A DNA stretch of 6,796 bases from Methylobacterium sp. (GTDB lineage: Bacteria; Pseudomonadota; Alphaproteobacteria; Rhizobiales; Beijerinckiaceae), in contig JAJKJG010000006.1 of the NCBI GenBank assembly GCA_021154065.1, positions 1 through 6,796 of the forward strand, given 5' to 3'. The position numbers were made by a program, and so were the translations under genes. Positions within the stretch are counted from its first letter, which is position 1. Each line of letters opens with the position of its first letter. A model generated the notes under the pieces. The model was not told the origin of the DNA. It saw nothing but the letters and a program-made list of their open reading frames with translations, and did no database searches. Shown here one piece after another: positions 1 to 6,796 of this stretch.

Positions 1-464
1 ACGGCCACCAGCACGTGCATGTGCTGCCCGGCCTGCGCGGGGTGCTTCTCGAAGTGCTCCGGCGCCGAGGTCTTCACGCCTTATGGCTGCGCGATCCGAC
101 GGACGATCTCGGTGCGATCCTCGGCCGCCGCATCGCCGCCGGAAAGGCGCTCGTCCTCGAAGCTCTCGGGCTCGGCTTCCGCAAGCACGCCAGCCGCGCC
201 GGGTTCGATACCAATGAGGGGTTTTCGGGCTACCGTTCCTTCGAGCAGCCGACGGATGTCGCGGCCGTGTTCGAGGCCGCCTTTGCGCGGCTCGGCCCGC
301 GGCCGGTGGTCATGTGCCATCCGGCGCATCCGGACCGTGAGCTCGAGCCTTTCGATCCGGTGCCGCGGAGCCGGGCCGAAGAGCTCGCCTATCTCGGCTC
401 GGATCGGTTTGGAGAGCTGCTGGCGGAGCGCGGCATCGAGCTCGTGCCCCGCCCTACGGTCTAA
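1..464 (+). CDS. ChbG/HpnK (YdjC-like) family carbohydrate deacetylase, 3' part
   Basis: This is the C-terminal part of a metal-dependent deacetylase of the ChbG/HpnK (YdjC) family, cut off by the left edge. The first complete codon is at base 3 and the gene ends with TAA at 462-464, leaving about 153 visible residues. The visible part opens with GHQHVHVLPGLR, the conserved second-half histidine motif of the family. About 100 residues later comes CHPAHPDREL, matching the family's C-terminal CHPGxxD-type motif. Between them, residues FDTNEGFSGY form another conserved block. Family members remove acetyl groups from N-acetylated sugars, as in chitobiose use (ChbG) or hopanoid side-chain processing (HpnK). 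The substrate here cannot be told, because the N-terminal catalytic Asp region lies outside the window. A GTG at 15 is in frame, but it lies inside the conserved motif and is not a plausible start. The gene converges on the dismutase gene 75 bp downstream. Confidence 0.85.
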   Translation, partial: GHQHVHVLPGLRGVLLEVLRRRGLHALWLRDPTDDLGAILGRRIAAGKALVLEALGLGFRKHASRAGFDTNEGFSGYRSFEQPTDVAAVFEAAFARLGPRPVVMCHPAHPDRELEPFDPVPRSRAEELAYLGSDRFGELLAERGIELVPRPTV

Positions 465-486
465 GCGTCATCCCGGCCGGAGCATG

Positions 487-518
487 ATCCCGGATAGCGG
501 CTAGGCCGCTTCCGGGAT
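487..518. terminator. Hairpin between convergent genes, possible shared transcript end
   Basis: ATCCCGGA (487-494) pairs with TCCGGGAT (511-518). AGCGGC (496-501) pairs with GCCGCT (505-510) around a TAG loop, with one bulged T at 495. The 14 base pairs sit between two tail-to-tail genes, where a bidirectional terminator would be useful. Neither side has a T-tract, so it is not a classical intrinsic terminator. It may instead stabilise 3' ends, or be a decayed intergenic repeat, because its left edge carries GAGCATGATC. Confidence 0.45.
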
Positions 519-539
519 AACGAGGAGAGGGCAACGAGA

Positions 540-1139
540 TCAGCGCGTCGCCTCGGAATACATTTTCTCGACGTGCTCCCAGTTCACGAGATTTTCGAGG
601 AACGCCTTGAGGTAGTCCGGGCGACGGTTGCGGTAGTCGATGTAATAGGAGTGCTCCCAGACGTCGCAGCCGAGGATGGGCTTCGCGCCATGCACCAGCG
701 GGTTCTCGCCGTTCGGCGTCTTCATGATCGCGAGCTTGCCGTCCTTGACGGCGATCCAGCACCAGCCCGATCCGAACTGCGTCACGCCCGCCTGGATGAA
801 GTCCTCCTTCATCTTGTCGACGCCGCCGAGGTCCTGGGCGATTTTCTTCTCGAGGGTCCCGGGGACCGATCCGCCGCCCTTCGGCTTCATCCACTGCCAG
901 AAATGGATGTGGTTGTAGTGCTGGCCGGCGTTGTTGAAGAGCGGCTGGTTCTTGCCGAACGAGCCCTTCACCACCTCCTCGACGCTCTTGCCCTCGAGTT
1001 CCGAGCCCTTCAGGAGAGTGTTGCCGGTGTTGACGTAGGCCGCGTGATGCTTGTCGTGGTGAAACTCGAGCGTCTCCTTCGACATGTAGGGCTGGAGGGC
1101 GTCGTAGGCATAGGGCAGATCGGGCAGAGTGAACGTCAT
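540..1139 (-). CDS. sodB: Superoxide dismutase, Fe (or cambialistic Fe/Mn) type
   Basis: This 199-residue protein converts superoxide to hydrogen peroxide and oxygen. It has no signal peptide and should be cytoplasmic. The N-terminal domain (about 1-90) has LPYAYDALQPYMS and EFHHDKHHAAYV; the C-terminal domain (about 95-199) has QFGSGWCW and DVWEHSYYIDYRNRRPDYL. The four metal ligands are all visible: His27, His77, Asp159 and His163. Gln73 in NNAGQHYNH sits where iron enzymes keep their active-site glutamine and manganese enzymes have glycine. This favours iron, although alphaproteobacterial members can be cambialistic. The ATG at 1139 is preceded by AAGGAG (complement of 1146-1151) at 6 nt spacing and gives the normal family length. 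The reading frame stays open far upstream, but that part shows no dismutase homology. The gene is monocistronic, divergent from the 1320 gene and convergent with the deacetylase gene. Confidence 0.96.
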   Translation of the reverse strand: MTFTLPDLPYAYDALQPYMSKETLEFHHDKHHAAYVNTGNTLLKGSELEGKSVEEVVKGSFGKNQPLFNNAGQHYNHIHFWQWMKPKGGGSVPGTLEKKIAQDLGGVDKMKEDFIQAGVTQFGSGWCWIAVKDGKLAIMKTPNGENPLVHGAKPILGCDVWEHSYYIDYRNRRPDYLKAFLENLVNWEHVEKMYSEATR

Positions 1140-1209
1140 CGGCCTCTCCTTACGGGTTGTCGTGCCCCCTGGCGGTGCATGAAATGCGCCGGGGCTGTCC
1201 CGGGCAGCG

Positions 1210-1238
1210 TTGTTAAGCCGAGACGGCCAGGACGGCAA
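1210..1238 (-). promoter_or_regulatory. Candidate promoter for the superoxide dismutase gene
   Basis: On the minus strand TTGCCG (1233-1238) and TAACAA (1210-1215) are separated by exactly 17 nt and lie about 70 nt upstream of the dismutase start. The -35 hexamer matches TTGACA at 4 of 6 bases and the -10 matches only weakly (3 of 6). The spacing and position are right, but in a 180-bp region such a match can occur by chance. On the plus strand an even weaker pair (TTGGTT at 1258-1263 and CTCTAG at 1281-1286, also 17 nt apart) could serve the 1320 gene. Confidence 0.25.
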
Positions 1239-1319
1239 CGGCCGAGCCGCCGCGAGCTTGGTTGCAAACCACGGCCAAGCCTCTAGAGTCGCTGAGGGTT
1301 TGGGAGCGCGTCCGGAGGG

Positions 1320-1943
1320 ATGATGGTCATCGCGCTGTATGTGATCGCGCTGGCGATGATCGGCGGCGGCGCGGCGTCCATCGCCTACGGCTACGGCATC
1401 GTCCTGAACGAGCGCGGCTGGACGATGGTGATCTCCGGCGCGACGGTGCTGGCGGGCGGGCTCGTTTTGCTCGGTATCGCGGTCGTCGCGGCACGGATCC
1501 GGCGGATCGAGCGCGAGCTGGCGAATTTCCGCGACCATGTGATGCGGTTGGGGACGGTCTTCCCGTCGCCGCGATCTTTCGAAAGCCGGCCGGCTCCCGA
1601 AGCCGAGGGTCCACCGCCCGCCGCCGAGCGGCGCGGTCCGGTCGCTGCCGTCGGGCAGGAAGAGCAGGCGGTGCTCAAGGCTGCCGACATCATTCCGGAG
1701 TCCGGTCCGCCCGAACCTCCGATGCGGGCCGCCCCGCCACGCGAAGAAGAGCCGGCCGAGCCGGAAACCTCGGGCCCCGCCGTTGTCGGGACCTACAATT
1801 CGGGCGGCAACTCCTATGTGATGTACGCCGACGGCGCGATCGAGGCCGACACCCCGACCGGCCGCTACCGTTTCAAATCCTTGGACGAGCTGAAGGATTT
1901 CATCGCCGCCGGCGGCGAGGACGGCGGACCGCGGAGCGGCTGA
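1320..1943 (+). CDS. Two-helix inner membrane protein with conserved C-terminal tail, function unknown
   Basis: I do not recognise a named function for this 207-residue protein. Two hydrophobic helices, about residues 2-29 and 34-59, are joined by a short NERG turn. A basic, heptad-like stretch (RIRRIERELANFRDHVMRLG, about 60-78) follows and may form a short coiled coil. Next is a Pro/Glu-rich, probably disordered linker (about 82-152). The C-terminal block at about 155-196 contains GTYNSGGNSYVMYADGAIEA, then TGRYRFKSLDELKDFIA. That compact, low-charge block differs sharply from the linker and looks like a small folded beta-rich unit, probably cytoplasmic. GGAGG at 1314-1318 is only 1 nt from the first ATG (1320) and 4 nt from the second (1323), so translation may start at 1323. 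The gene diverges from the dismutase and converges on the oligopeptidase. From memory, similar tails occur in uncharacterised Hyphomicrobiales proteins. Confidence 0.85.
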   Translation: MMVIALYVIALAMIGGGAASIAYGYGIVLNERGWTMVISGATVLAGGLVLLGIAVVAARIRRIERELANFRDHVMRLGTVFPSPRSFESRPAPEAEGPPPAAERRGPVAAVGQEEQAVLKAADIIPESGPPEPPMRAAPPREEEPAEPETSGPAVVGTYNSGGNSYVMYADGAIEADTPTGRYRFKSLDELKDFIAAGGEDGGPRSG

Positions 1944-1958
1944 AGCGTTCCGCCCGCG

Positions 1959-1987
1959 CAAAAAAAGAAGCGCCCCTGAGGGGCGCT
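1959..1987 (-). terminator. Intrinsic terminator for the oligopeptidase transcript
   Basis: AGCGCCCC (1969-1976) and GGGGCGCT (1980-1987) form a perfect 8-bp stem with a TGA loop. On the minus strand the stem is followed by TTCTTTTTTT (complement of 1959-1968), so it is a classical intrinsic terminator for leftward transcription. It lies about 130 nt beyond the stop of the 2120-4246 gene and only 16 nt beyond the stop of the opposing gene. On the plus strand no T-tract follows, so it should not stop the 1320 transcript efficiently. Confidence 0.85.
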
Positions 1988-2054
1988 CGCTAAAAGGTGC
2001 CGGCCGGTGGGGGCAGAGAATGGCCGGTGATACCCATTCAACGCGGCCCCCGAC

Positions 2055-2084
2055 AGCCGGTTCCAACCGGCTTTAAATTTTTTT
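2055..2084 (+). terminator. Intrinsic terminator for the 1320-1943 transcript
   Basis: AGCCGGT (2055-2061) pairs with ACCGGCT (2066-2072) around a TCCA loop, followed by TTAAATTTTTTT (2073-2084). The U-tract is on the plus strand, about 110 nt beyond the stop of the membrane protein gene. It is also only 36 nt short of the opposing oligopeptidase stop codon. Confidence 0.8.
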
Positions 2085-2119
2085 CGGGCGGGTTTAGGCA
2101 ATGGCGAAGCTGGCCGTGG

Positions 2120-4246
2120 TCATGCGGCCGAGCGCGCCTCCACGTCCTCGAACCCCTCGATTGCCCGGACCGCGAAGGCGTAGATCAGGCCGACCTCCTC
2201 GAGGCGGTCGAACCGCCCCGCCGCCCCGGCGTGCCCGGCCTCCATGTTGATCTTCAGGAGCACCGGGCCGCCACCGCTCATGGTGGCGCGCAGGCGCGCG
2301 ACCCACTTCGCCGGCTCCCAATAGGTCACCCGCGGATCGGTGAGGCCGCCGAGCGCGAGGATCGGCGGGTAGCGCTGCGGCTTCACGTTGTCATAGGGGG
2401 AATAGGACAGGATGGTGCGGAAATCCGCCTCGGATTCACCCGGATTTCCCCACTCCGGCCATTCCGGCGGAGTCAGCGGCAGGTCGCCGTCGAGCATCGT
2501 GTTGAGGACGTCGACGAAGGGCACGTCGGCGACGATGCCGGCGAAGAGGTCGGGAGCCATGTTCGCGACGGCGCCCATGAGCATGCCGCCGGCGCTGCCG
2601 CCATGGGCGACGATGCGCCCGCGCGCCGTGTAGCCCGCCGCCGTCAGCGCTTCCGCGCAGGCAACGAAGTCCTTGAAGGTGTTGGGCTTGTTCTCGCGCT
2701 TGCCCTGCGTGTACCAGCCCCAGCCCTTCTCCGTGCCGCCGCGGACATGGGCGATGGCGTAGACGAAGCCGCGGTCGACGAGGGAGAGCGGGCTGGTGCG
2801 GAAGTTCGCCGGCATCGAGGAGCCGTAGGAGCCGTAGCCGTAGAGGAGGCACGGCGGCTTACCGTCGAGGACGAGCCCGCGGCGGTGCAGGAGCGAGATC
2901 GGGACCTGCTCGCCGTCGGGCGCCGTCGCGAAGATCCGGCGCGTCACATAGGCGGATGGGTCGTGGCCGCTTGGGACCTCCTGGCGCTTGCGCAAGACGC
3001 GCGCGCGGGTGCGCACATCGTAGTCGTAAACCTCGCTCGGCGTCGCCATCGAGGAATCGGAGAACCGGATGGTCTCGGTGTCGAACTCGTAGCCGGGGCT
3101 GACGGTCAGCGAATAGGCCTCCTCGTCGAAATCGACGGCGTGCTCCGCCCCGGTCCAGATGTCGCGCACGACGATGCGCGGGTTCGCGTCCTGGCGCTCG
3201 AGCCGCACGAGATGGCGGGCGAGCGCCATGTGGAAGAGGATCATGATGCCCGGCCGGTGCGGGATGAGCTCGCGCCAGTTCCGGCGTTCGGACGCGGCGA
3301 GCGGCGCCGTGACGATCTTGAAATCCTCGGCGGCGTCGGCGTTCGTCAGGATGACGAGGTCGCTGCCGTGGTGGTCGACCGAATAAAGCACGCCCGCGTC
3401 GCGGGCGGCGACGAGCCGGGGCGAAGCGCTCGGGTCCTTGCGGTCGAGCAGCCACACCTCCGAGGTCTCGTGATTGCTGACCGTCAGCACGATGAAGAGC
3501 GCCGAGGTCGTGACGTCGAGATCGATGAACCAGCCGGATTCGGTCTCCTCATAGACAAGCGCGTCCTCCGCCGCCGGCGTGCCGATGCGGTGGCGCTTGA
3601 CCCGGACCGGGCGATGCTTTTCGTCGACCTCGACATAGTAGAAGGTCTCCGAATCCGAGCACCACACGACTTCGCCCGCGGTCGCGAGCACCTCGTCGGC
3701 GAGATCTTTCCCAGTCGCGAGGTCGCGGACCCGGATCGTGAAGAGCTCGGAACCCTTGGTATCGGCGCTCCAGGCGAGAAGCCGATGGTCGGGGGAATGG
3801 TCGGCGTCGTGGAGATCGAAGAACGCGGCGCCCTTCGCTTCGGCATCGCCGTCGAGAAGAATCTCGGACTGTCCACCGTTGCGCGGCTCGCGGCAGACGA
3901 GCGGGTGCTGGCCGCCCTCGCGGTAACGGGTCGAGTAGGCGAAGGCGCCGTCGACCTCCGGCACGGTCCAGTCGTCCTCCTTGATGCGGCCGCGCATTTC
4001 GGCGACGATTTGCTCGCGCAGCGGCGCCGCGCCGGCGAGCACCGCCTGCGAAAACGCGTTCTCGGCCTCGAGGTGGGCTCGGATCCGCGGCGGCAGGACG
4101 GCCGGGTCCTTGAGCACGTCCATCCAGTTGGCGGCCTTGAGCCAGGCGAAATCGTCGCGCAGCCGAACGCCGTGGACTTCGAACTCGCGCGGCTCGGCAA
4201 AGACCGGCGGCTCGGACGGTGGCAGCTGCAGGCGATCGCTCTTCAT
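2120..4246 (-). CDS. ptrB: S9 family prolyl oligopeptidase, protease II (oligopeptidase B)-like
   Basis: This 708-residue serine peptidase matches the usual length of oligopeptidase B (about 690 residues). It has the two-part S9 architecture: a seven-bladed beta-propeller domain (about 80-425) that restricts entry to short peptides, and an alpha/beta-hydrolase domain (about 430-700). The catalytic triad is visible as Ser551 in HGGSAGG, Asp637 in GGLTDPRV and His672 in EAGHAGAAG. Further family signatures are YGYGSYG (469-475), AHVRGGTEKGWGW (about 499-511) and VPFVDVLNTMLD. There is no signal peptide, so it is probably cytoplasmic and degrades short peptides, typically after basic residues. 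The region that supplies acidic S1 residues reads PPEWPEWGNP, where enterobacterial enzymes have GEFEEWGNP, so specificity may differ. ATG at 4246 gives the family start; an in-frame TTG at 4321 adds 25 unconserved residues. The ribosome binding site is weak. It is divergent from the mucR-like gene. Confidence 0.93.
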   Translation of the reverse strand: MKSDRLQLPPSEPPVFAEPREFEVHGVRLRDDFAWLKAANWMDVLKDPAVLPPRIRAHLEAENAFSQAVLAGAAPLREQIVAEMRGRIKEDDWTVPEVDGAFAYSTRYREGGQHPLVCREPRNGGQSEILLDGDAEAKGAAFFDLHDADHSPDHRLLAWSADTKGSELFTIRVRDLATGKDLADEVLATAGEVVWCSDSETFYYVEVDEKHRPVRVKRHRIGTPAAEDALVYEETESGWFIDLDVTTSALFIVLTVSNHETSEVWLLDRKDPSASPRLVAARDAGVLYSVDHHGSDLVILTNADAAEDFKIVTAPLAASERRNWRELIPHRPGIMILFHMALARHLVRLERQDANPRIVVRDIWTGAEHAVDFDEEAYSLTVSPGYEFDTETIRFSDSSMATPSEVYDYDVRTRARVLRKRQEVPSGHDPSAYVTRRIFATAPDGEQVPISLLHRRGLVLDGKPPCLLYGYGSYGSSMPANFRTSPLSLVDRGFVYAIAHVRGGTEKGWGWYTQGKRENKPNTFKDFVACAEALTAAGYTARGRIVAHGGSAGGMLMGAVANMAPDLFAGIVADVPFVDVLNTMLDGDLPLTPPEWPEWGNPGESEADFRTILSYSPYDNVKPQRYPPILALGGLTDPRVTYWEPAKWVARLRATMSGGGPVLLKINMEAGHAGAAGRFDRLEEVGLIYAFAVRAIEGFEDVEARSAA

Positions 4247-4598
4247 CGTCAGGTGTCCGGCTTGGGCACAGGGGGTTGGGTGCGGATGTGGGGTTATGGC
4301 GCGGCCGCACAAGTCGGACAAGCGCTGGCAATCCTTGCCTGTCGCAACCGTTTCTTGCGTGGTTCTGCCGGCGTGTTGCAGGAAATCATGGTGAAATCCT
4401 GAATGTTCGGGAATTTTCTACTTGTGTTCTGTCTCGGGCTGATCTAATCGAGACCATAATCTGGGCGGCGAGCCCTAGTTCCACGCCCGCGCCAGCGTCG
4501 ACAAGCTTAGAGACTAAGATTTCGCTTCAGCGGGCGACCGGTGTACGAACCTTGGACTCGGCGGCAAAAGTTCACAGGACCAGCAAGGAAAGCACTCA
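4247..4598. promoter_or_regulatory. Divergent intergenic region between oligopeptidase and mucR-like genes
   Basis: These 352 bp hold no protein gene I can support. The half nearer the mucR-like gene (about 4380-4530) is clearly richer in A/T than the rest of the window. It contains GAAATC repeats (4383-4388 and 4393-4398), the arms CAGGA/TCCTG (4379-4383 and 4397-4401), CATAAT (4455-4460) and TAAGAT (4515-4520). CATAAT matches the -10 consensus at 5 of 6 bases but has no good -35 at 16-18 nt. TTGTGT (4422-4427) with TAATCG (4445-4450) at 17 nt is a weaker alternative. MucR/Ros proteins bind AT-rich sites in their own promoters, so autoregulation here is a reasonable inference. The promoter of the oligopeptidase gene must also lie in this region but is not obvious. 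Confidence 0.5.
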
Positions 4599-5024
4599 AT
4601 GAGCGAGAACGCCTCTTCCACCTATATCGACCTCGCTGCCGACATCGTTTCGGCCTATGTGAGCAACAATTCGGTCCCGGCGGGCGACCTGCCCGGCCTG
4701 ATCAGCCAGGTGCATCTCGCACTGGCACGGGTCGGGAACGGCGCCGCCGAAGCCTCGGCCGATGCGCCGAAGCCGGCAATCGCGATCAAGAAGTCGATCA
4801 CGCCCGACTACATCATCTGCCTCGAGGACGGCAAGAAGTTCAAATCGCTGAAGCGTCACCTGCGCACGCAGTACAACCTGACGCCGGAGCAATACCGCGA
4901 GAAGTGGGGTCTCGCTCCCGACTATCCGATGGTCGCCCCGAGCTATGCCAAGGCGCGCTCGGACCTTGCCAAGGAGATGGGCCTCGGCCAGCAGCGCCGG
5001 AAGCGCCGCGCCCGCGCGGCGTGA
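4599..5024 (+). CDS. mucR: MucR/Ros family transcriptional regulator with non-canonical zinc site
   Basis: This 141-residue DNA-binding protein belongs to the prokaryotic zinc-finger (Ros/MucR) family. In alphaproteobacteria these proteins regulate exopolysaccharide, motility, virulence and cell-cycle genes by binding AT-rich DNA. The N-terminal part (about 8-45, YIDLAADIVSAYVSNN and LPGLISQVHLAL) is the oligomerisation region; a linker follows at about 46-65. The finger domain (66-125) reads ITPDYIICLEDGKKFKSLKRHL, then TPEQYREKWGL and DYPMVAPSYAKARSDLAKEMGLG. The tail QQRRKRRARAA is strongly basic. Candidate ligands are Cys74, Asp77 and His87, but Gln91-Tyr92 occupy the place where classical members carry the last His. 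Some family members fold without zinc, so loss of metal is possible. AAGGAA (4585-4590) lies 8 nt before the ATG. Several MucR-like paralogues are common per genome, so the symbol marks the family only. Confidence 0.93.
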   Translation: MSENASSTYIDLAADIVSAYVSNNSVPAGDLPGLISQVHLALARVGNGAAEASADAPKPAIAIKKSITPDYIICLEDGKKFKSLKRHLRTQYNLTPEQYREKWGLAPDYPMVAPSYAKARSDLAKEMGLGQQRRKRRARAA

Positions 5025-5045
5025 GCCAGCCGACATTCGCGACGG

Positions 5046-5074
5046 AAAGCCGCCGGTTCCGGCGGCTTTTTCTT
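5046..5074 (+). terminator. Intrinsic terminator of the mucR-like gene
   Basis: AAAGCCGCC (5046-5054) pairs perfectly with GGCGGCTTT (5061-5069) around a GGTTCC loop. The T-rich end TTTTTCTT runs through 5067-5074. It starts 22 nt after the stop codon, a textbook rho-independent terminator for the rightward transcript. On the minus strand the A-tract becomes TTT after the stem (complement of 5046-5048), so some stopping of leftward transcripts is also possible. Confidence 0.9.
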
Positions 5075-5113
5075 AGAGCGCGATGACGTCTCGTCGAGTC
5101 GTCATCCCGCTCT
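5075..5113. repeat. 39-bp imperfect palindrome, first half of a compound intergenic repeat
   Basis: The segment reads as one long hairpin. AGAGCG (5075-5080) pairs with CGCTCT (5108-5113). GATGACG (5082-5088) pairs with CGTCATC (5100-5106). CTC (5090-5092) pairs with GAG (5096-5098) around GTC. Only the facing C/C and T/T positions are unpaired. It directly follows the mucR terminator, and 10 bp later a second palindrome begins. The block CGTCATCCCG (5100-5109) recurs at 466-475 in another intergenic gap of the window. Confidence 0.6.
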
Positions 5114-5121
5114 ACCTGTTT

Positions 5122-5168
5122 GAGCATGATCTTTTCCGAAAACCGGTAGCCACTTTTGGGGATCATGC
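5122..5168. repeat. Rhizobial-type GAGCATGATC...GATCATGC dispersed palindromic repeat
   Basis: GCATGATC (5124-5131) and GATCATGC (5161-5168) are perfect inverted arms around a 29-nt centre containing TTTTCCGAAAACCGG and CCACTTTTGGG. Its inner complementary tracts (AAAACCGG, and ACTTTTGG further right) give partial pairing. I recall closely similar elements as frequent intergenic repeats in Hyphomicrobiales genomes. The left arm GAGCATGATC also occurs at 480-489 downstream of the deacetylase gene. It lies between the mucR terminator and the stop codon of the opposing desaturase gene, 7 bp from the latter, and may act as a shared 3' end structure. Confidence 0.7.
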
Positions 5169-5175
5169 CTAGCGT

Positions 5176-5973
5176 TCAATCCTTCCGCAGCGGCTGGAGC
5201 AGCATGCGGTCGAGCCGCAGCTCCTTTTCGTCCCGGAACTGCGAGATGCCGATCGTCATGCCGTCGTGCCCGGCCGCGGGCGCCGCCCGATAGGTGCCGA
5301 ACAGGCGGTCCCACCAAGGCAGGTTGAAGCCGAAATTGCTGTCGGTTTCGCGCCGCTCGATCGAGTGGTGGACCCGGTGCATGTCGGGCGTCACGACGAA
5401 CAGGCGCAGCACACGGTCGAGCCGAGGCGGCAGCGCGATGTTGCCATGGCTGAACATCGAGGTCGCGTTGAGGAGGACCTCGAAGGCGAGAACGCCTAAC
5501 GCCGGCGCGCCGAGCGCGGTGACGATCGCGATCTTGATGATCATCGACAGCACGATCTCGACCGGATGGAACCGCACCCCGGTGGTGACGTCGAATTCGA
5601 GATCGGCGTGATGCATGCGGTGAAGCCGCCACAACAGCGGCACGGCGTGGAAGAGCACGTGCTGGAGATAGATCGCCAGGTCGAGGACGACGACCGCCAT
5701 CCCGATCTTCACCCAGACGGGCAGGGCGAGGTTGTTGAGAAGCCCCCAGCCGCGCGCCTCGCCGAGGAGCGCCGCGCCGACCGCCGCCGTCGGGAACAGC
5801 AGCCGCAGCACCAGCGTGTCGACGATCACAACCCCGAGATTGCCGGGCCAGCGCGAGGCGCGGCCGATTTCCTGCGCCCGACGCGGCGCCCGCAGCTCCC
5901 ACAGCGCGAGAACGGCGAAAACGGCGGCGAAGCACGCCAATCGGATCAGGGGCTCGTGGGAGAGGACGCTCAT
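5176..5973 (-). CDS. Fatty acid hydroxylase / sterol desaturase superfamily membrane protein
   Basis: This 265-residue integral membrane protein has the histidine boxes of the di-iron hydroxylase/desaturase superfamily. They are His105-His109 (QHVLFH), His118-His121-His122 (HRMHH), His136 (FHPVE), His186 (SHGN) and His199-His202-His203 (HRVHH). Hydrophobic segments at about 8-27, 46-70, 86-107 and 138-172 fit an inner-membrane protein with the histidine boxes on the cytoplasmic face. Such enzymes use oxygen and a reducing partner to hydroxylate or desaturate lipid chains, sterols or carotenoids. The substrate cannot be told here, and no lipid pathway gene is adjacent. The C-terminal WWDRLFGTYR motif is typical of bacterial members. 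The ATG at 5973 was chosen because the N-terminus then begins with the first membrane helix; an in-frame TTG at 6009 would add 12 unconserved residues. Neither start has a good ribosome binding site. Confidence 0.92.
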   Translation of the reverse strand: MSVLSHEPLIRLACFAAVFAVLALWELRAPRRAQEIGRASRWPGNLGVVIVDTLVLRLLFPTAAVGAALLGEARGWGLLNNLALPVWVKIGMAVVVLDLAIYLQHVLFHAVPLLWRLHRMHHADLEFDVTTGVRFHPVEIVLSMIIKIAIVTALGAPALGVLAFEVLLNATSMFSHGNIALPPRLDRVLRLFVVTPDMHRVHHSIERRETDSNFGFNLPWWDRLFGTYRAAPAAGHDGMTIGISQFRDEKELRLDRMLLQPLRKD

Positions 5974-6046
5974 CAGGCGGAATCTGGGTGGATCGCCGTC
6001 GCGCAGCAAGTCGGCTCGGCCGACGTCGATACTTACCGTGCGTCAC

Positions 6047-6202
6047 TTCGGCTGTGGCTGTGTCCTTCGAAGCACAGCCGTAAGCAGCCGAATCGGCTAC
6101 AGAGAAGTCTGTTCCTCCCGTGGGGCGTTTGAGGGCGTAACCCTTAGGGGTGCTCGGGCGCTTAACTTCAGTGGGGCGGCGGCGCCGTCCCACTTTTTAT
6201 TT
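6047..6202 (+). ncRNA. Candidate structured small RNA ending in an intrinsic terminator
   Basis: There is no rightward gene upstream, yet a strong rightward terminator closes this interval, so a small RNA is the simplest explanation. Four consecutive stem-loops are visible. The first pairs TTCGGCTG/CAGCCGAA and GGCTGTG/CACAGCC (6047-6092). The second is ACAGA-GAAG-TCTGT (6099-6112). The third is ACCC-TTAG-GGGT (6140-6151). The fourth is the terminator stem. CCTCCC (6114-6119) lies between stems two and three. It is complementary to Shine-Dalgarno sequences, a pattern known from several alphaproteobacterial trans-acting small RNAs. A weak -10-like GATACT lies at 6028-6033 without a clear -35, so the 5' end is uncertain. 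I could not match it to a named RNA family. Confidence 0.4.
6171..6202 (+). terminator. Strong plus-strand intrinsic terminator with no upstream protein gene
   Basis: GTGGGGCGGC (6171-6180) pairs with GCCGTCCCAC (6184-6193) over 10 bp with one G-U wobble and a GGC loop. It is followed by TTTTTATTT (6194-6202). This is a classical terminator for rightward transcription. On the minus strand the T-tract becomes A-rich and precedes the stem, so it would not terminate leftward transcripts. Confidence 0.8.
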
Positions 6203-6331
6203 GCGCGTCGCGCCCGCCCAGTATTCGGGCGCTTCGACGCCGACCCGTCCGCAGCAGCACAAGGCATCGACAGGGGCCGAGCGCCGACGCGCGGTCGGCC
6301 GCGGGTGCAGGCATCGCCGATAAGACCCCGT

Positions 6332-6577
6332 CTAAAAGCGAGTGCGCGAGGCGCAGCGGCCGTCCGCGATCTTGAACGCCGGCGGATCGCAGGGCAGGGA
6401 ATCCGCATCGCACCAGCGCTGGCACACCACGGTCTCGTACGGGCTGCGCTGGCTGTAAGGCGCCGGCGGCCGCTCATAGCGCGGTCCACGCGCCACGTAG
6501 AGCGGCTGAGCGAGGGCTGCGGACGCGAATGCCGAAAGACCGGCGCCGAGTGCGAGGGTTCTGATCATCAAAGCCAT
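6332..6577 (-). CDS. Small exported Cys-containing protein, function unknown
   Basis: I do not recognise this 81-residue protein. The N-terminus MALMIRTLALGAGLSAFASA has a positive residue, a hydrophobic core and an ALA-Q cleavage site after residue 23, a convincing Sec signal peptide. The mature part (about 58 residues) starts with an Arg/Pro/Tyr-rich segment (RGPRYERPPAPYSQRSPY). It ends with a Cys-containing region: Cys52 and Cys56 (VCQRWCDADS), Cys63 (LPCDPP) and Cys75 (DGRCASR). Four cysteines in a periplasmic protein suggest two disulfides. The ATG at 6577 was chosen; a second ATG at 6568 (MIRTLAL) also leaves an intact signal peptide. Neither has a strong ribosome binding site. From memory, small exported proteins with a short PPxFxIADGRC-like tail occur in Hyphomicrobiales. 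The gene lies about 100 bp from the tRNA fragment. Confidence 0.65.
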   Translation of the reverse strand: MALMIRTLALGAGLSAFASAALAQPLYVARGPRYERPPAPYSQRSPYETVVCQRWCDADSLPCDPPAFKIADGRCASRTRF

Positions 6578-6674
6578 CCGGAACGTGCGCCCGCCTGATC
6601 GCGAGCGCCTCACTGTAGCCGATCTGTACGGCATGCGCGATTTCGAAGACGGTCCGGCGTCTTGAGCGAGTTCG

Positions 6675-6720
6675 TGGCGCGCCCGAAAGGATTCGAACCT
6701 CTGACCCCCAGATTCGTAGT
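6675..6720 (-). pseudogene. 3' half of tRNA-Arg(ACG), likely attachment site (att) duplicate
   Basis: Read on the minus strand, the segment gives the anticodon loop CTACGAA (anticodon ACG), the stem half TCTGG and a GGGTC variable loop. The T-arm follows (AGAGG, loop TTCGAAT, CCTTT), then the acceptor half CGGGCGC, discriminator G and CCA. All of these are in the correct order and lengths for tRNA-Arg. The 5' half is absent: the bases before the anticodon loop read TCTAA where CCAGA is needed, and no D-arm or correctly spaced acceptor partner follows. A GCGCCCA run (complement of 6777-6783) could pair with the acceptor, but it lies 58 nt from the anticodon loop instead of 24. Identity beginning at the anticodon loop is typical of tyrosine-recombinase attachment sites. 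Confidence 0.75.
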
Positions 6721-6796
6721 TAGATCGTTCGCGCTCTAGCTAGTTCTTCCGAACTCTCCCCAAAGCGCTTAAGCGCCTGGGCGCTAACCATTTTTA
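6721..6796. other. Palindrome-rich sequence beyond the tRNA fragment, no gene seen
   Basis: These 76 bases run to the right edge and contain no supported gene. They include the palindrome CTAGCTAG (6736-6743), the hairpin AGTTC-TTCC-GAACT (6742-6755) and the perfect 12-bp palindrome GCGCTTAAGCGC (6765-6776). GGCGCT (6779-6784) then partly repeats one arm. If the tRNA fragment is an attachment site, this is the first sequence of the integrated element, where recombinase or excisionase arm sites are expected. Confidence 0.4.

Follow-up and report, generated by a model that had tools for sequence, protein, structure and literature searches.

A half copy of tRNA-Arg(ACG) close to mucR as the probable attachment-site scar of an integrative element

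How the 3′ half of a tRNA gene came to lie near the regulator gene mucR is the question raised by this locus, and we sought to answer it from the window, by which we mean the whole stretch of 6,796 nucleotides, and from related genomes. Among 397 family genomes the nearest by ptrB are G078 (82%) and G040 (73%), the two genomes of their genus in the set searched. The minus strand at 6675-6720 is identical (46/46) to bases 32-77 of the 77-nt tRNA-Arg(ACG) of G078 (locus L134), encoded CCA included, and is likewise identical over 46/46 bases to the intact tRNA-Arg(ACG) of G040 (L133). The fragment starts one base before the anticodon loop and ends at the CCA. Because the next-longest exact match of the G078 gene within the window is 9 bases, a chance origin of the identity is excluded. 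None of the listed ORFs of at least 80 aa covers the fragment, which overlaps no conserved protein domain. The amino acid specificity, anticodon, coordinates and strand assigned by the earlier note were thus all correct.

It had further been claimed that the 5′ half of the gene is missing and that unrelated DNA stands in its place, and a tRNA finder had been proposed for the locus. ARAGORN called no tRNA anywhere in the window, and Rfam gave no tRNA hit either, whether over the full window (E up to 1) or over 6000-6796 (E up to 10), so that no complete tRNA model covers the fragment. Aligning 6721-6796 with the tRNA 5′ half gave a local score of 16, a value reached by 387 of 2000 simple shuffles, in agreement with the loss of the 5′ half. 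That the locus is a full tRNA gene of unusual form whose 5′ half has diverged, although this would accord with the perfect 3′ half, is scarcely conceivable given the missing tRNA calls and the shuffle-level similarity on the 5′ side, and was rejected. The fragment is instead likely to be an att core left by integration, as its sequence and limits suggest (Table 1).

Table 1. Features of the window, with the evidence for each
Feature	Position	Strand	Evidence
ptrB, oligopeptidase (S9), host backbone anchor	2120..4246	-	PF02897, PF00326
mucR/ros regulator gene, the conserved protein gene nearest the scar	4599..5024	+	PF05443, E 4e-53
Fatty-acid-hydroxylase gene, between mucR and an RNA-like element	5176-5973	-	no match in the 20 relatives' ptrB loci
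CCA-side flank of the scar, not conserved, containing a small secreted-looking ORF (6332-6568, minus)	6204..6674	.	ORF weakly matched in 37 of 397 family genomes; flank unlike 22 tRNA-Arg downstream flanks
3′ fragment of tRNA-Arg(ACG)	6675..6720	-	46/46 against the intact genes of G078 and G040; no tRNA call
Unrelated DNA in place of the tRNA 5′ half; putative first 76 bp of an integrated element	6721..6796	.	GC, shuffles, blastn

We then looked for half copies elsewhere in the family. The 397 genomes surveyed were drawn from the larger family, that of a Rhodoblastus MAG, which from the source names we take to be Beijerinckiaceae. A 33-base tRNA core was matched with at most two mismatches in 270 of them. 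Among the matches listed, nine pairs were selected in which both copies lie on one contig, 18-72 kb apart and in the same orientation; tandem copies about 150 bp apart were not used, nor were the copies of G278, which lie 2.5 Mb apart, or those of G083, which are on opposite strands, and the intervals between the copies were compared at their ends only. In all nine pairs the 5′-most copy was called as tRNA-Arg(acg) and the other copy received no tRNA call, the intact gene thus being 5′ of its half copy (9/9). The identity of each half copy begins 0-4 bases before the loop sequence CTACGAA, closely resembling that of the window, which begins one base before it.

Every one of the nine intervals also contains, among the matches listed, a match to PF00589 (tyrosine integrase) near one end. 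The earlier note had expected the integrase gene beside the intact tRNA. This holds for four pairs (G261, G352, G283 and G328), in which the match lies about 150-170 bp from the intact gene, but not for the remaining five (G028, G066, G332, G308 and G338), where it lies about 0.8-3.4 kb inside the half-copy end. When ten ORFs near intact tRNAs were scanned, with the ORFs of L155 and L161 left out, five proved to be PF00589 members, namely those of the same four genomes and of the viral contig L145; the other five (L157, L171, L163, L150 and L151) were not.

The 46 bases are also carried by viral DNA. The exact sequence is present in 20 IMG/VR viral contigs, whose stretches include a canonical 77-nt tRNA-Arg in 3 cases, a call of aberrant length in 3 and no tRNA-Arg in 14. 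It is found at 100% in three Pseudomonas phages of 91-95 kb as well, which is, together with the viral contigs, as would be expected if the copies served as attP cores. In these phages, Dolphis, Touem01 and Jeremy (H3-H5), the 46-base core lies under no annotated feature and is possibly an unannotated att site. Taken with the family pairs and the integrase matches, the viral copies lend strong support to the earlier claim that the half copy is a 3′ end displaced by integration, and an integrative element targeting tRNA-Arg(ACG) is in our judgement the probable source of the scar, a grading that covers integration as the origin and overlaps with the variant of a displaced relic considered below.

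Such an element, either a prophage or a genomic island, would encode a tyrosine integrase and carry in its attP a copy of the tRNA 3′ half. Recombination of attP with the tRNA-Arg(ACG) gene, with the crossover at the anticodon loop, would let the copy brought by the element restore a whole tRNA at one end and displace the original 3′ half to the other. The scar would be the far junction, reading P arm, core and host, and the element, with its own integrase, may still lie to the right of 6796.

Which side of the core belongs to the host can be judged from the family pairs. Because the intact gene lies 5′ of the half copy in all nine, the element of the window should lie to the right and the host to the left. 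A direct comparison of flanks agrees, although it is insensitive: by blastn against 22 flanks, the CCA-side DNA of the half copy found a counterpart downstream of an intact tRNA in another genome for 3 of the 9 pairs, its 5′-side DNA for none (0/9), and the DNA immediately inside the intact copy for one (75 and 56 bp). By tblastx the corresponding numbers were 5, 0 and 2 of 9, some of the matches being weak. Together these comparisons give modest support to an element on the 5′ side and a host on the CCA side. The element DNA should accordingly begin at about 6721 and run rightwards, with all but its first 76 bp presumably beyond the end of the window.

The GC content of those 76 bp is 51.3% against 66.5% in 1-6674, a weak contrast over only 76 bp, since a value this low is found in 127 of the 6598 windows of that size within 1-6674. 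Blastn found no match to them in the loci retrieved for comparison, viral contig stretches included, and an exact junction pattern gave 0 hits in the viral contigs. In the 10 phage records and in the 20 plasmid records listed of 25, the matches lay around the core and extended no more than 12 bases beyond it into the 76 bp. Against an integration origin it also counts that no integrase or other gene of an element is among the eight proteins of the window that were scanned, the element side amounting to 76 bp, and that the CCA-side flank of the window matched none of the 22 tRNA-Arg downstream flanks of relatives, the same blastn test having succeeded in only three of the nine family pairs.

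The reverse arrangement, in which an attP-borne tRNA half was inserted at a non-tRNA site with the element on the left (CCA side) and the host on the right, would suit the observation that neither the flank at 6204-6674 nor the fatty-acid-hydroxylase gene lies beside mucR in the relatives examined. We nevertheless regard it as very improbable: the scanned window proteins, as noted, include no integrase, the conserved host gene mucR ends 1.65 kb from the core, and the element occupies the opposite side in the nine family pairs.

With integration at a tRNA gene retained as the preferred reading, the surroundings of the scar have to be accounted for. The window contains a YdjC-like gene (its end only), sodB, a small ORF whose start looks membrane-like, ptrB, mucR, the fatty-acid-hydroxylase gene and a second small ORF. 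The host appears to be Microvirga-like, because the ptrB product shares 99% identity with a protein whose name comes from a Microvirga sp. MAG. We compared the ptrB loci of 20 relatives, 10.6-20 kb in length with about 6-16 kb of each on the mucR side; 19 were taken from the 30 best ptrB matches, 11 of which were unused, and G045 was added from lower in the list. mucR is present in 18 of the 20. On the side of the ptrB/mucR block where the window has the scar, all 20 carry a gene for a 290-aa protein and a gene that we presume, from our own reading, to be SufE-like; neither was found in the window, where the scar stands in their place. No tRNA was called in the ptrB/mucR neighbourhood of any of the 20, and in G040 tRNA-Arg lies 1.5 Mb from ptrB on one contig. 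Among the loci examined, a scar near mucR occurs in this window only.

The fatty-acid-hydroxylase gene has no match in any of the 20 ptrB loci, and its relatives, at most 72% identical (80 loci of 563), are spread by record title over several classes of proteobacteria, with one Nitrospiraceae MAG among them; this spread suggests that the gene may have been gained horizontally. The small ORF of the flank gave weak matches in 37 of the 397 family genomes and belongs to no Pfam family. The view that the DNA left of 6675 is host backbone, and with it the earlier assignment of host to the left and element to the right, is supported in part: the polarity follows from the nine pairs and the sodB-ptrB-mucR block is conserved, but the DNA adjoining the scar matches none of the 22 tRNA-Arg flanks and lacks the two usual genes, so that the left flank is conserved host DNA only in part.

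The odd neighbourhood would be accounted for by any one of three events: a rearrangement that followed integration, relocation of the tRNA, or a misjoin in the contig. Because the relatives examined have no tRNA-Arg near mucR, a fact that also weighs against the plain integration reading, we infer that rearrangement or relocation may have altered the surroundings of the scar in the lineage of the window. The scar could then be a displaced relic, a variant of integration in which the element has since been lost, inverted or split off by chromosomal rearrangement, leaving the half copy near mucR. The two neighbour genes, present at all 20 loci of the relatives, at which no tRNA is called, and missing from the window, speak for this, as do the distance seen in G040 and a published inversion that separated a full from a partial tRNA copy, as given in an excerpt of the source (PMC9897764). 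The 46 bases are nonetheless undecayed, and loss of the element is a supposition about DNA right of 6796, outside the window; we hold this variant to be possible but somewhat doubtful.

The core may itself have been the point of rearrangement: recombination between tRNA-Arg half copies, by integrase or by homology, would have placed an island border next to the mucR block, with loss of the genes that usually adjoin that block. This is a speculative proposal that we think rather unlikely; if true, tRNA-Arg scars would be chromosomal breakpoints in the lineage of the window. An assembly chimera, in which unrelated pieces were joined, for example at the 46-base repeat or somewhere in the DNA from mucR to the scar, is more improbable still. 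The window record may be metagenomic, the scar lies outside its expected neighbourhood, and assemblies do break at the 46-base repeat, as judged from some draft contigs of relatives that start at or near the core (G200:C24:1-46, G112:C59:1-46 and G127:C42:49-94). A join at the core itself, however, would leave unexplained why the CCA side leads to mucR.

Returning to integration at tRNA-Arg(ACG), the site, mechanism and signature are all already published, going by excerpts of two papers (PMC4383910, PMC11476347). In the excerpted Islander work, islands are defined by an intact tDNA and a displaced fragment; of 3919 candidates, 3760 have a 3′ tDNA fragment, and an anticodon-centred site is listed for 2083 (PMC4383910). 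The scar resembles such tDNA islands and prophages of the anticodon-loop att class in being a 3′ fragment with CCA, in its break adjoining the anticodon loop and in its identity to an intact gene, and the same pattern recurs with integrase matches in the nine family pairs. It differs in that the window contains one junction only, the element, its integrase gene and the intact tRNA gene expected in the same orientation 2-200 kb away being presumably outside it, and in that the host flank of the scar is unlike the relatives' tRNA-Arg flanks examined. In Sinorhizobium meliloti, another alphaproteobacterium, genomic islands are reported to occupy gene 007, tabulated as tRNA-Arg(ACG) in the extract at hand (PMC11476347), and thus to use the same tRNA gene; those islands were mapped in genomes, whereas the likeness to the window rests on the identity of the tRNA gene, not on att sequences. 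A prophage in tRNA-Arg(CCG) of the same species is described in a further excerpt (PMC5537653). In Thermococcus kodakarensis KOD1 one inversion separated the full and partial tRNA copies, according to the portion of that report considered (PMC9897764). As there, an integration-derived tRNA fragment would lie away from its expected neighbourhood, but both copies were seen in KOD1, and relocation is deduced here from the gene order of relatives.

The scar would thus mark where a mobile element ends in a Microvirga-like lineage that has been sampled sparsely, and tRNA-Arg(ACG) is an insertion site used repeatedly within the family and beyond it, as the nine pairs and the twenty viral contigs show. 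With a textbook mechanism, the sole unusual point is the position near mucR, where the relatives examined have other genes.

Several RNA-like features were observed in addition. An RNA-like element with a terminator-like hairpin lies at 6108-6206 (plus strand) and is 81% identical over 96 bp to DNA downstream of mucR in G078, the one relative of 20 whose locus contains a match. When 348 relatives were searched with two candidates scored per genome, the matches listed were to the tRNA core, plus the RNA-like element of G078. A structure of 28 pairs was predicted for the element from the two sequences, one pair having a two-sided change. The reading of 6133-6208 as mmgR (RF00519) is weak, the score of 24.9 bits falling below the gathering threshold of 41 and the G078 counterpart giving no such hit. 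At 5031-5180 (minus strand) a match to the Brucella sRNA BASRCI27 scored 46.3 bits, below its gathering threshold of 59.8. Finally, downstream of the intact tRNA-Arg of G078, a second piece resembling a tRNA 3′ end, with a repeated flank, lies at L134:1545-1680 and looks like debris of earlier integrations.
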